Of a stretch of DNA of 64,000 nucleotides, positions 16,750-56,723 are shown piece after piece (the stretch's first letter is position 1; each line of letters begins with the position of its first letter). Below the pieces are notes generated by a model, which did not search any database, was not told the DNA's origin, and worked only from the letters and a program-made list of their open reading frames with translations. Source of the DNA: Agelas oroides (Eukaryota > Porifera > Demospongiae > Agelasida > Agelasidae); NCBI GenBank assembly GCA_949130485.1, contig OX422193.1, positions 7,474,472-7,538,471 of the forward strand. Reading direction: 5' to 3'. A program made the position numbers and the translations under genes.

Positions 16750-16840
16750 TCAGCTTTTCCAAAACTTCAAACGGGATATTAGACCTGGGGGATTCTGGGC
16801 TGTAGTTGGTGCAGGTGTTGCTGGTGATTTTGTGGCAGTC
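16750..16840 (-). CDS. Paralog A exon 19: tail and stop
   Basis: Encodes RTATKSPATPAPTTAQNPPG and ends LKFWKS before TGA. Acceptor CACATCAG. The Thr/Pro/Ala stretch varies in paralog B, but the start (RTATK) and last residues (KFWKS) are conserved. Confidence 0.9.
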
Positions 16841-19800
16841 CTGATGTGAAAAATTAATTCCAGTCATACAAGTGTCAATCAACTACACTTCTAGATTCTG
16901 GCCATCAAAACGTTAGCTACCAAGACATTCCCAGGCTCTCCTCACTTAGCATGGAGAGCCTGGGATGTGGCCAAATATTATTCATATCCCTTAATGGTTG
17001 GTGGTGTCACACACACTGACGTCAGGACTAGAACAATCCCCCACCAGCTAGGGATCCATTACCAGGAACACATAGGCAGGCTGGTTATGTGCTCTTGTAT
17101 TACAGTATACTTAAATTTGTATGTGCGTTATGCTTCAAACAGTTGAAGGTCAAAACATCAATACTTATAAACTAATAGATGTGTTACATAAGTACACAGT
17201 GTACATTCATTATACCACAGTATTGTACATAAATGTGTGTATCAGTGAGGTGCTTGTGCATGATAACTCTACCTTTGTCTGTTTGCTTCAAGAAGCAGCT
17301 GAACAATGTGATCATGTCCTTCAGACCTGGCAATTGCCAGTGGTGTTCGACCAAACTGTGTATGAAGAGAGTTAATCACCATACATGTTAGAAACCAGGT
17401 TTCTGGCACAGCACTACAGCAGAGTACGTAGTTCACCTGTATACATGACACATTGCGCATGAAGACATGCATGCGGTCTACAAGATTTTGAGCACTTGTG
17501 GTGAGGGCTAAAGTTGCATTATATAGACAATCCAAGTTGCTCTCAAAATGAAGAACTTTTCTCAAGTGTAATAGAACAGATAAGCCAGTCAGCTTACAGG
17601 CAGTAGAGATCCTCCTGCTAGCTTCATGCCTAGTTTCAGTATGTCAGTTGAACAGCTGCAAATTTAGCATGAATAGTGAGTTTTACCAGTCTGTGACTTC
17701 TAAGTAGCTGCCTTGAGTAAAAACAGTGCAGGAAACAAATATAAGCAAGGCTGTGTGTTGAAATCAGCACTTTACTCCGCTCAGGCTCACCCCATAATAA
17801 TAAATCACCTGTATAGTATCCACTACATAATCAATGCTGTGATGGTCAGAGGTGGGAGCTTGCACGGGATAGTTGAACCAACCAAGCATTTCCTCTGTGC
17901 AAGTGCCGACCCCCTATTTTTCTCACTTGAGCTGTGAAGTCCCCGTGGCCACTTGCTTGGGAAAATACGGTATAGAGTATAGTAGTGAAGGAGCACACAC
18001 ACTAACATGAGAAGCCTCACCCTCTCCTGATGGTTGATATCAGCTTCTCTCCTGAGGAGAAGCTCCACAATCTGGTCATGGCCTTCCTTACATGCAATAT
18101 ACAATGCTGTCTGGCCATCCTGTACATGTAAGGGGGAGCAAGATGGATCAGAGGTCATGAAAATCATACCACCAACCAGCTTACATAGTGCAACCTCACA
18201 CCAGCATGACCATAGTCAAACCCAGACGGAAACCTATCCACTTGATTAGGAGGTAATGTTCAATCACAATCACGTTCAAATATAATCACATATGACAACA
18301 GTTATTTCCAGCCACAAGTAAAACGCTAGCCTAATATAATGTGTTTACAACATCAAAGAAACACCTTCATGTACGTTGATTGACTAAAAATTATCTGCTA
18401 TCTTGTCATAACATTACAATGCCATTCTAATAGGACTTATGATTATTCTGTGCACAGTGCCTTTGGTTAAAGTCTTAAGATTGATTGTGTTTTATCATAC
18501 TATTTCAAAGATACTGATAGGAGAAAAAATGTCTGAAAGTCACAGCAGTAATAGCATTTGTTTAAATGGCCATGGTCAGTGAGTGTCTTCACCGTGTGCC
18601 ATGTATAGCTTTAGTGTAGTCTTTTAGTGAAGTTTAGTGAATAGTTACTGTTTGTTCTGAATGTGGACACACACATAACCACTAGATTTGTCCACCTTGT
18701 TCACAGACCACTGTGTGCCCAGATTTTATCATGCTGTCAATGCAAGTCCTCTTCACTTAGTATCAATAACCATCACTGACATTCTGTGGTACATGACCAG
18801 CAATGTTGCCGTTAGGCAGTCATTGTGAATATTGAACTTTGGGACATATATTCAAGACAAATCCAATTCTGGACTCAAGACCCCCTCCCACATTTTGTCT
18901 CAAAATTGGGGGGTAAGGTTTTGTGTGAGGTATATGTGGCATGGGAACATACTTGATTACACCAACTTTTCATGAATGTTTACTGACTACATGGAGTTTT
19001 TCCATGTGCATTGTTGAGTATGACAATCTTGACCAACACTCCACCTCACCTCTGTCTCCTGCTCCACACTAGCTCCTGCTTGTAGTAGCAGCTCAACAAC
19101 CTGGGAATGACCTTCCTGGCAGGCAGCATGGAGTGCAGCAAACCCATCCTGTGAAAGAGTCAACAATAAAGATCAATGTACATTTATAGTCAACATATTC
19201 AGTGACACAGAGTAGCAAATGATAAACACTTTACCACTGATCTACTATGGGTTACACAGGATGTAGCATAATGTACAGCTCAAGGGTTAATTATACATCA
19301 TATACCTGGCCTGGTTAATCAGTACTCTTGCAACATCTGGAGCAGCAACCATGTGAGCTAATTAGGGTTCAGTAATCTTATTAATTGGCAATCTTGTTAC
19401 TTGATATTACAAGAACATTAAAATTGGCCGAATCAAGTAACAGCCAGACTATTGCACACATTACAGTTGACATCCTCCTCACTTCAGAGAGAATGACTGA
19501 TTACAATACACGCTAAGATTCTCCTCACAGCATTTGTTGTCCTCACCTTCTTCTGTATGTCAGGGTTGGCTCCTGCTGCAAGGAGGAGTTCAACCACCCT
19601 CTGGTGGCCATTAAAGCTTGCAGTGTACAGTGGTGTCCTACCAGTCTACAGTGAGTGTGTGTCAGTGTATTGTAGGAAAGAGCAAGTGTATAGCTTCTTG
19701 TCAGACGTTAGTCAACATATGCCCAACATGAAGAATGAGTGCAAACACTAATACACAGATATCATGCTATCTAGTTGGTAAGCATACTATGTAGTGCTCA

Positions 19801-56300: not shown

Positions 56301-56723
56301 ACGATGAATGATGTGCTTGGAGTGGAGGTAGGTGAGAGCAAGGGCGATGTCATGCCACAGGTTCACCTGAAGGTGGTATGGAAGGGGCTCATCAGAATGC
56401 TCTACGAAGTCTGTGAGGTTTCCATCTAGCAACTCCATGAGGAGAATGGGAAGGCCAGACTGTGGGTCATGAGTCACACCGAGATACTGCACCACATTGG
56501 GGTGCCTCATGTTCTGTAAAAGTTCACATTCTTGTATAAACCTGCGTTGAATAGTTGGGCTTTGAGGATCATCATTCTGGAAGAGAACTATGTGCAAAAG
56601 TTTTGCAGCACAGGGCAGTTCATTAAGTTTGGCTTTGAAGACTTTGCCATACGCTCCTGAACCAAGACATTCACCATGAAACAGCTGCAGGTCTTGACGC
56701 TCTGCTTGCAGCAGTTCAGACAT
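46805..56723 (-). CDS. Paralog B: TKL-type kinase, coiled coil, ubiquitin-like, CARD, unknown module, ankyrin repeats
   Basis: Fourteen coding exons join in phase to 1115 codons. Minus-strand exons: 55508-56723, 55274-55347, 54925-55029, 54687-54788, 53723-53798, 53179-53481, 51635-52431, 50597-50686, 49382-49480, 49094-49192, 48522-48620, 47849-47947, 47265-47344, 46805-46913. Exon phases and most lengths equal those of paralog A, so this is a tandem duplicate in the same orientation. It has four ankyrin repeats (types c, a, b, c) against nine, and a coiled coil about 90 residues shorter. Kinase catalytic residues are intact. No stop or frameshift was found. The shared intron 1 sequence (TAATGCCTGATGG region) shows the duplication is not very old. 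Confidence 0.9.
47672..47725 (+). repeat. tRNA-like SINE head
   Basis: TGGCTTAATGGTAAGAGCAT resembles an A box and AGTTCGAATCCCAGC a good B box, but the arm between is too short for a tRNA. Confidence 0.5.
47849..49480 (-). CDS. Paralog B ankyrin exons 9-12 (types c, a, b, c)
   Basis: Four 99-bp phase-0 exons: 49382-49480 (EGQTALYIASDKGH), 49094-49192 (DGCTPLWAASFHGY), 48522-48620 (DGWTPFHAACHEGH) and 47849-47947 (DGQTALFAASRKGH). No recent internal duplication here. This order may be the ancestral state. Confidence 0.95.
48782..49036. mobile_element. 255-bp MITE with ~40-bp TIRs
   Basis: GTCTATCAAGCCAGACCATC and the inverted GATGGTCTGGCTTGATAGAC bound the element. The repeats extend inward through CTCTCACCCTCCAGAAAA. 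It lies in the intron between paralog B ankyrin types a and b. The ends resemble those of the elements at 32190 and 32848. Confidence 0.9.
49770..49860. repeat. (GT)n(G)n low-complexity tract
   Basis: GTGTGTGTGTGTG followed by a G run and GGGGAGG units, inside paralog B intron 8. Reading frames through it are artefacts. Confidence 0.9.
50296..50440 (+). repeat. Dispersed repeat, CAATGAACCACATCTC family
   Basis: CAATGAACCACATCTCC, TCATCCACTGCAC, CAACAGGCCTCATCAGCTGT and GGTGATTGGGAGATG, in family order. Paralog B intron 8. Confidence 0.75.
50597..50686 (-). CDS. Paralog B exon 8: linker to the ankyrin array
   Basis: EVELLEASFYGLLERIPTLL and ten more residues. Same length and phase as paralog A exon 8. 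Confidence 0.85.
50738..50819. repeat. TAGCCTCATTTCCAGGCC hairpin
   Basis: TAGCCTCATTTCCAGGCCTG plus TTTGAAA pairs with TTTCAAACAGGCCTGGGAAT plus GAGGCTA. The 82-bp unit is palindromic apart from its centre. The flanks show no exact target duplication. Confidence 0.85.
51635..52431 (-). CDS. Paralog B exon 7: conserved module of unknown function
   Basis: 266 codons (paralog A 277). CPNALTQLKQCLASLVLPLG, FFRLMAPYWNCLST, LADFEEARASSGPL and CWLVSRDLLPYMRSHKG are conserved. The middle third (about 51940-52040) carries deletions and substitutions, which suggests a flexible linker between two conserved halves. Confidence 0.85.
52754..52985. repeat. 60-bp minisatellite, about 3.9 copies
   Basis: CTATACAAGTGTCACCTGCC and CATGCTTTACACTATGTATA repeat every 60 bp with almost no divergence. 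The period divides by three, so a frame stays open (TSVTCHSKHPCFTLC repeats), but nothing else suggests coding. Paralog B intron 6. Confidence 0.95.
53179..53481 (-). CDS. Paralog B exon 6: CARD-like domain
   Basis: Contains ARAIRTNYSLLWQHLDASKV, DKSIISEAKKKEVESYQQGH and TICDMLKITPEKEHIAQHIL. Strongly conserved with paralog A over the whole domain, including both borders. Confidence 0.75.
53723..55347 (-). CDS. Paralog B exons 2-5: ubiquitin-like segment
   Basis: Exons 55274-55347, 54925-55029 (CRLSCAHPSSGDLIERKLEV), 54687-54788 (CQLVRYNEKSGTMGKLFDEP) and 53723-53798 (EMPLCEVVGEPQSC..FMEIKT). Lengths equal paralog A exactly. The donor of 54687-54788 (GTTAGA) is 11 bp from a long CA microsatellite. 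Confidence 0.75.
54511..54673. repeat. (CA)n microsatellite in paralog B intron 4
   Basis: About 160 bp of CA with CGCA interruptions, ending 13 bp from the donor of paralog B exon 4. It is (GT)n on the transcribed strand. Confidence 0.95.
55508..56723 (-). CDS. Paralog B exon 1: kinase domain and coiled coil
   Basis: Starts MSELLQAERQDLQ. Loop LGSGAYGKV (20-28), Lys41, HRDLSGNN (140-147) and DFG 160-162 sit at the same numbers as in paralog A. The P+1 segment is CPGNAAYMSPEAL, so the usual Thr of GT..Y is Asn. The coiled coil (IQELQKQIDNKRQQNKEQHR and onward) runs to about residue 400. Donor GTATAT, phase 1. Confidence 0.95.

Follow-up and report, generated by a model that had tools for sequence, protein, structure and literature searches.

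Two genes, A and B, lie within a 64,000-nucleotide stretch of the genome of the sponge Agelas oroides (assembly GCA_949130485.1, contig OX422193.1, positions 7,474,472 to 7,538,471 of the forward strand; hereafter the window). Each is predicted to encode, in one chain, a protein kinase, a coiled-coil-like stretch, a segment homologous to part of USP47, a likely CARD, a large module specified by exon 7 and an array of ankyrin repeats. The reading favoured here, with somewhat better than even confidence, is that A and B belong to a kinase family fused from three sources, whose copies multiplied and exchanged segments and whose kinase is activated by assembly in a danger or cell-death pathway. 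The fusion origin is supported but not proven, and the mechanism is one that we infer.

Gene structure and domain content

The window belongs to contig C11 of a 259-Mb genome (G000), and loci are named by contig and Mb. Both genes lie on the minus strand and were rebuilt from blocks conserved between A and B and from splice sites. As a sequence-only reading of the window had proposed, both are intact, with 19 and 14 exons and open frames; B starts at 56723 and A ends at 16750. All introns are of the GT-AG type (31/31; 18 in A and 13 in B) and, again as proposed, the phases are equal at corresponding junctions of the two genes. The agreement between the gene models is far beyond chance. Residues 1-1029 of A are 77% identical to B with an omega of 0.33 (NG86) or 0.47 (YN00), omega (NG86) rises from 0.24 for the kinase to 0.53 for the ankyrins, and purifying selection on both genes is supported. 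The features are as follows (positions in the window).

16750..29884, minus strand: gene A, 19 exons, 1383 amino acids (exon models, GT-AG sites, open frame)
28399..29884, minus strand: A exon 1, kinase (residues 1-285) and Q/E-rich coiled-coil-like stretch (286-495) (Pkinase E 4.2e-41; catalytic residues kept)
27119..28238, minus strand: A exons 2-5, putatively USP47-derived segment, 126 amino acids, phase 1 at both ends (48% identity over 126 amino acids to residues 641-765 of the USP47 protein P0002)
28238-28144, 27860-27756, 27676-27575 and 27194-27119, minus strand: A exons 2-5 singly (exon models)
26556..26858, minus strand: A exon 6, CARD-type domain, phase 1-1 exon (homologues and predicted structure; alone below the Pfam cut-off)
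24694..25523, minus strand: A exon 7, 277-amino-acid module without Pfam family (homologue search, domain scan, structure model)
24125..24214, minus strand: A exon 8, conserved 30-amino-acid linker preceding the ankyrins (exon model and genome matches)
17273..23320, minus strand: A exons 9-18, ankyrin array of nine 99-nt exons plus a partial repeat (exon models, Pfam)
16750..16840, minus strand: A exon 19, C-terminal tail ending in KFWKS (exon model; recurs in B and at C11:7.59)
46805..56723, minus strand: gene B, 14 exons, 1122 amino acids (exon models)
55508..56723, minus strand: B exon 1, kinase and Q/E-rich coiled-coil-like stretch (Pkinase E 2e-41)
53723..55368, minus strand: B exons 2-5, putatively USP47-derived segment (89% identity to A over the segment)
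55368-55274, 55029-54925, 54788-54687 and 53798-53723, minus strand: B exons 2-5 singly (exon models)
53179..53481, minus strand: B exon 6, CARD-type domain (79% identity to A exon 6; no Pfam CARD match of its own)
51635..52431, minus strand: B exon 7 (79% identity to A exon 7)
50597..50686, minus strand: B exon 8 (exon model)
47265..49480, minus strand: B exons 9-13, ankyrin array of four 99-nt exons plus a partial repeat (exon models)
46805..46913, minus strand: B exon 14, C-terminal tail ending in KFWKS (exon model)

The proposed order from kinase to ankyrins was borne out at both ends, by Pfam Pkinase matches in exon 1 (E 4.2e-41 in A and 2e-41 in B) and an Ank_2 match in A (E 6e-116), and seven loci in the genome share it. 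The residues K41, E65, D142, N147, D160 and E189 are conserved in 9/9 aligned kinase copies, with HRDLSGNN as the catalytic loop, so that the residues of an active kinase are present, as had been claimed. The Q/E-rich, heptad-like stretch behind the kinase is taken as a coiled coil from its sequence, and the NCBIfam matches to exon 1 were general kinase and coiled-coil ones only. The PDB chains closest to the kinase by sequence were one EGFR chain, followed by IRAK4, and no RIPK chain was found among the best 60 of 99 matches (a comparison of PDB chains only, without a tree), which gives no indication that RIP kinases are its closest relatives. The scanned exons of A and B contained no DEATH domain and the protein begins with the kinase, unlike IRAK, in which a DEATH domain precedes the kinase; the scanned exons likewise gave no match to Kelch repeats (window) or to NACHT or NB-ARC, the hallmark of NLRs.

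A search with residues 496-1029 of A returned a single database match, a USP47 protein (P0002, E 6.3e-25; 7993 candidates scored, limited by length and shared words). Exons 2-5 are 48% identical over 126 amino acids to its residues 641-765, directly behind the UCH domain (235-624), and form a cassette of 378 nt with a phase-1 intron on each side. No other part has diverged less between A and B (89% identity, dS 0.17). The ubiquitin-like part of the sequence-only reading is thus present as a homologue of a USP47 piece, but exons 2-5 gave no Pfam match reaching the cut-off, and the corresponding place of P0002 has no Pfam ubiquitin match either. The UCH protease domain is absent from the scanned exons of A and B, and a PDB sequence search with exons 2-5 returned nothing convincing.

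Exon 6 is likely a CARD, judging from its homologues and its predicted structure. PF00619 was matched at E<=0.01 by 21/74 aligned exon-6 sequences (best 2.9e-6), the alignment consisting of the two window copies and 72 of the 120 listed among 231 homologues, and 7/19 paralogous exon-6 sequences match CARD at E<=0.1 (best 1.6e-5). Two loci on C14 that were found by exon 6 (E 6.5e-7 and 1.2e-6) themselves pass the PF00619 cut-off. The AlphaFold2 model is a helical bundle of seven segments (mean pLDDT 94.8), of which the first two (6-19 and 21-27) adjoin as in a kinked helix 1; the first helix of CARDs is kinked. Structure prediction, which the sequence-only reading had named as a check on exon 6, returned a confident bundle, but no decisive CARD emerged from PDB profile searches. 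A PDB sequence search with exon 6 alone gave nothing convincing and NCBIfam gave no match to it. The genome-wide searches yielded 52 matches to CARD and at least 150 to DEATH, for which 150 of 870 candidates were scored; neither exon 6 of A nor that of B is among the 52.

Exon 7, which the sequence-only reading had not named, is the largest non-kinase module (277 amino acids). It matched no Pfam family (the only match, MA3 at E 0.14-0.16, is below the cut-off) and no NCBIfam family, and no convincing PDB relative was found. Homologues number 270 among 2946 candidates (120 listed), and several of those listed lie on long contigs of one and the same length (e.g., six at 380,004), which suggests that exon-7 homologues may form local arrays in other assemblies. 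The structure model, built from 63 of the 120 listed homologues and the two window copies, comprises a helical half and an alpha/beta half (pLDDT 74.7, poor at residues 1-19 and 133-179), and we would call the alpha/beta half ferredoxin-like by eye. Behind the exon 8 linker, each full ankyrin repeat is encoded by one 99-nt exon, the repeats of B being assigned by similarity to those of A. The number of full repeats is nine in A, four in B and three at C11:7.59 Mb, each followed by a partial repeat, and at least five at C17, which was read in part. A three-exon unit recurs within the array of A. The conserved C-terminus reported earlier is confirmed, and its KFWKS end is common to A, B and C11:7.59.

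Candidate sources of the parts

A genome search with the kinase returned 87 matches (86 of 1462 candidates scored), and the two relatives that were read (L069 and L070) encode a kinase, a coiled coil and Kelch repeats, all on one exon. A large kinase-coiled coil family exists in the genome, clustered for example at C3:18.1-18.3 Mb. Relatives of exons 6 and 7 occur at twelve further loci, and at two of these the match to exon 6 contains a stop. One such locus (L049) has the order DEATH (PF00531, E 1.1e-7), large unassigned exon, CARD-type exon, exon 7, exon 8 and ankyrin exon; the 10 kb read there gave no match to a kinase or to USP47. Its phases equal those of A and B at five splice sites (acceptor and donor of the CARD exon, acceptor and donor of exon 7, acceptor of exon 8). 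A DEATH match is also found about 5 kb upstream of a CARD-exon 7 relative at C11:8.91 Mb. The phases at L049 and the upstream DEATH matches together place the putative fusion join of the A/B family in the phase-1 intron that precedes exon 6. With the kinase-coiled coil-Kelch relatives added, these phases make the A/B gene look like a fusion of three sources. The large exon of L049 (5433-6365) is a 310-amino-acid open frame between the DEATH and CARD exons with no Pfam match over the cut-off. A W-L-V stretch that it shares with exon 7 by eye raised the possibility of homology, which was not borne out (BLASTP E 4.0 at best, hhalign E 0.16).

The origin proposed for the family is an intron-mediated fusion. 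The first source would be the kinase-coiled coil end of the large kinase family, the second four USP47 exons encoding the segment behind the catalytic domain and placed between two phase-1 introns, and the third the CARD-exon 7-exon 8-ankyrin body of a gene family that, in the one member read (L049), carries a DEATH domain upstream instead. After the fusion, the copies would have multiplied, swapped segments and changed their ankyrin number.

The genome's own USP47 seems to be in pieces, with two N-terminal copies and a separate C-terminal piece (L062 at C11:9332101-9342100, L060 and L063 on C21, L061 on C43). In the copy at C11:9.34 Mb, residues 270-474 and 994-1055 were matched and residues 475-993 gave no credible match; the C21 copy gave no match past residue 474 within about 14 kb, and C43 holds C-terminal parts only. 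A genome search with the USP47 residues flanking the segment found only the family of A and B.

Several points weigh against the fusion reading. Among the 240 homologues listed, a single one (P0165) joins exons 5 and 6, with an apparent read-through intron, and none joins more. The DEATH and CARD exons of L049 are assumed to form one gene. The term exon shuffling rests on the intron phases of the recipient. As to the CARD itself, exon 6 of A stays under the Pfam cut-offs (CARD_2 E 0.0065, CARD E 0.024; PF00619 and PF16739 at 15.1 of 23.9 and 16.9 of 28.2 bits) and exon 6 of B has no CARD match, so that the domain named in the sequence-only reading is carried by homologues and model and not by its own Pfam scores. 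In the PDB profile search with exon 6, CARD8 appeared at E 0.7, ranked after an unrelated chain, and no CARD appeared when a larger alignment was used.

Seven loci and their mosaic histories

The two neighbouring genes, described earlier as a tandem pair, are members of a wider family. The common order is found at seven loci on four contigs (C11, C15, C17 and C22), namely A, B, C11:7.59 Mb, C11:6.49 Mb, C15, C17 and C22, each of which has an open kinase exon followed by matches to exons 2, 3, 4, 6, 7 and 8, all in one order and on one strand. In this count exon 5 is not listed at every locus, some of the short-exon matches contain a stop (perhaps by running past exon ends), and C122 and C15, which give matching scores, are treated as one locus. 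Ankyrins were confirmed at the four of the seven loci whose 3' parts were read. At two further loci the stretch covered shows exon 1 only (C4, 4 kb) or exons 1 and 2 only (C11:7.547 Mb, 1.9 kb), and no later exons are listed nearby.

Different parts of the seven copies have different histories. The tree of each part is rejected by the data of the other, the exon-7 tree by the kinase (AU p 6.3e-6) and the kinase tree by exon 7 (AU p 0.0018). Along exon 1, the identity between A and B in 180-nt windows is 84, 91, 94 and 86% in the first four and 69-73% in the next four, which start at the activation segment; in these low-identity windows B is 89-93% identical to C11:7.59, and A 79-87% identical to C17. 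The four windows that run from where the coiled coil ends through exon 2 show A and B at 90, 83, 92 and 93% identity, part of the coiled coil being without comparable sequence in this profile. Segment exchange between copies is the simplest reading. The proposal that the whole architecture is selected thus holds for the conserved order and the omega values of 0.24-0.53, but not as a single shared history of the kinase and the C-terminal half. In 21/21 pairs omega is higher for exon 7 than for the kinase, and all values are below 1 (NG86; the pairs are not independent).

Outside the coding exons, a short block conserved between A and B lies about 0.4 kb upstream of both start codons (30315-30371 and 57092-57148) and is perhaps a 5' untranslated exon or a promoter element. 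Between the genes lies a Copia-type long terminal repeat retrotransposon (39600-44060, plus strand) with gag (E 1.2e-8), RVT_2 (E 4e-43) and integrase core (E 8.3e-6, below the cut-off) matches, direct repeats that are 95-97% alike (39600-39837 and 43779-44060) and a coding part split across several frames. The element is set inside other repeated sequence (36879-38475 and 44058-45454). Elsewhere in the window, open frames at 5860-6195 and 12049-12393 on the minus strand resemble exons of MRCK/ROCK-type kinases by eye.

Proposed function and comparison with known kinases

In the proposed mechanism, the coiled coil and the CARD would gather molecules and thereby lead to trans-autophosphorylation of the kinase, as in other death-fold kinases. 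The ankyrin array and exon 7 might bind a ligand or keep the protein inactive, the USP47 segment might dock partners from the ubiquitin system without protease activity, and the output would be phosphorylation in a cytosolic danger or cell-death pathway. An immune or cell-death role of A and B is plausible by analogy. According to two studies, the expression of ankyrin, CARD, DEATH and kinase genes changes in sponges given microbial molecules (PMC6208332, PMC8242945), and one study lists a gene annotated as RIPK1 (PMC6208332 / PMC8242945); these findings make an immune role plausible but do not concern A and B themselves. A placozoan study states that an RIPK1/2 orthologue was not found there and that the same is reported for cnidarians (PMC6321704). 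A Pfam survey of the sponge Dysidea avara gives 39 CARD and 128 DEATH genes (PMC12909245). Such Pfam-count surveys of sponge immunity could miss CARDs that, like those of A and B, fall below the curated cut-off.

The low divergence of the USP47 segment between A and B (89%, dS 0.17), together with published roles of USP47 outside immunity (PMC4994957), would also suit a protein that acts not in immunity but as a scaffold or regulator in ubiquitin signalling or in development, in which this segment is the main dock and the kinase phosphorylates USP47 partners. We consider this unlikely, since the CARD, the ankyrins, the clusters of copies, the segment exchange and the DEATH-type sister gene point, by analogy only, to danger or death signalling. 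It is less probable again that the family is a diversified recognition repertoire, serving immunity or self-recognition, in which shuffling of the ankyrin part, exon 7 and the kinase C-lobe would vary sensing and phosphorylation. Mosaic copies, variable ankyrin number, the faster exon 7 in 21/21 pairs and the many exon-7 homologues in other assemblies fit such a repertoire, but omega is below 1 in all tested pairs, seven loci are few, ordinary gene conversion between duplicates would leave an equal trace, and the data come from one individual. Least probable of these alternatives is a tandem of two genes at each locus that were duplicated together (exon 1 or exons 1-5 forming a kinase-coiled coil gene, next to an independent CARD-exon 7-ankyrin gene): exon 1 does stand alone on C4 or with exon 2 at C11:7.547 Mb in the stretches covered, and CARD-exon 7 genes without an A/B-type kinase exist (L049), but exons 1-5 and exon 6 are in frame across phase-1 introns in A and B with no stop or obvious start between them, and the exons 2-5 segment and exon 6 co-occur at 7/7 loci (exon 5 not being listed for each).

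Under the three-source fusion favoured here, the family offers a traceable assembly of an animal signalling kinase, in which candidate sources can be seen (two within this genome itself), joins fall at phase-1 introns and parts are exchanged between copies. If CARD assembly does drive the kinase, a single chain would combine the sensor, adaptor and kinase that in vertebrates are separate proteins. A further-reaching reading, which we put forward tentatively and would not expect to hold, holds that an early animal lineage has a repertoire of CARD receptors that are armed with a kinase and recombine, with ankyrin number, exon 7 and the kinase C-lobe and activation segment exchanged to give NLR-like diversity without a nucleotide-binding domain, and the captured USP47 segment as a tie to the ubiquitin system.

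Kinases with a death fold and kinases with ankyrins are known kinds of protein; the combination with the USP47 segment and exon 7 in one chain appears to be new. No paper on a chain of kinase, USP47 segment, CARD, exon 7 and ankyrins was found by title or abstract start in searches of the open-licence PMC literature, which does not prove that none has been published. Like A and B, RIPK2 combines an N-terminal kinase with a CARD in a single chain, whereas A and B have the coiled coil and the USP47 segment between the two and continue with exon 7 and ankyrins. RIPK4 and ANKK1 share the N-terminal kinase and C-terminal ankyrin repeats, but A and B carry the USP47 segment, CARD and exon 7 in between and show no sign of closer kinase kinship. 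Within the sponge genome, the kinases of L069 and L070 are about 54-60% identical to those of A and B in the matched parts and are likewise followed by a Q/E-rich stretch, but these genes end in Kelch repeats, of which the scanned exons of A and B are free. L049 resembles A and B in its CARD-type exon (47%), exon 7 (53%), exon 8 and ankyrin exon, with equal phases, and differs by the DEATH domain and large unassigned exon upstream in place of a kinase and USP47 segment within the 10 kb. USP47, finally, corresponds to exons 2-5 in the 126 residues behind its UCH domain, while the gene models of A and B include neither the protease domain nor the later parts of USP47.

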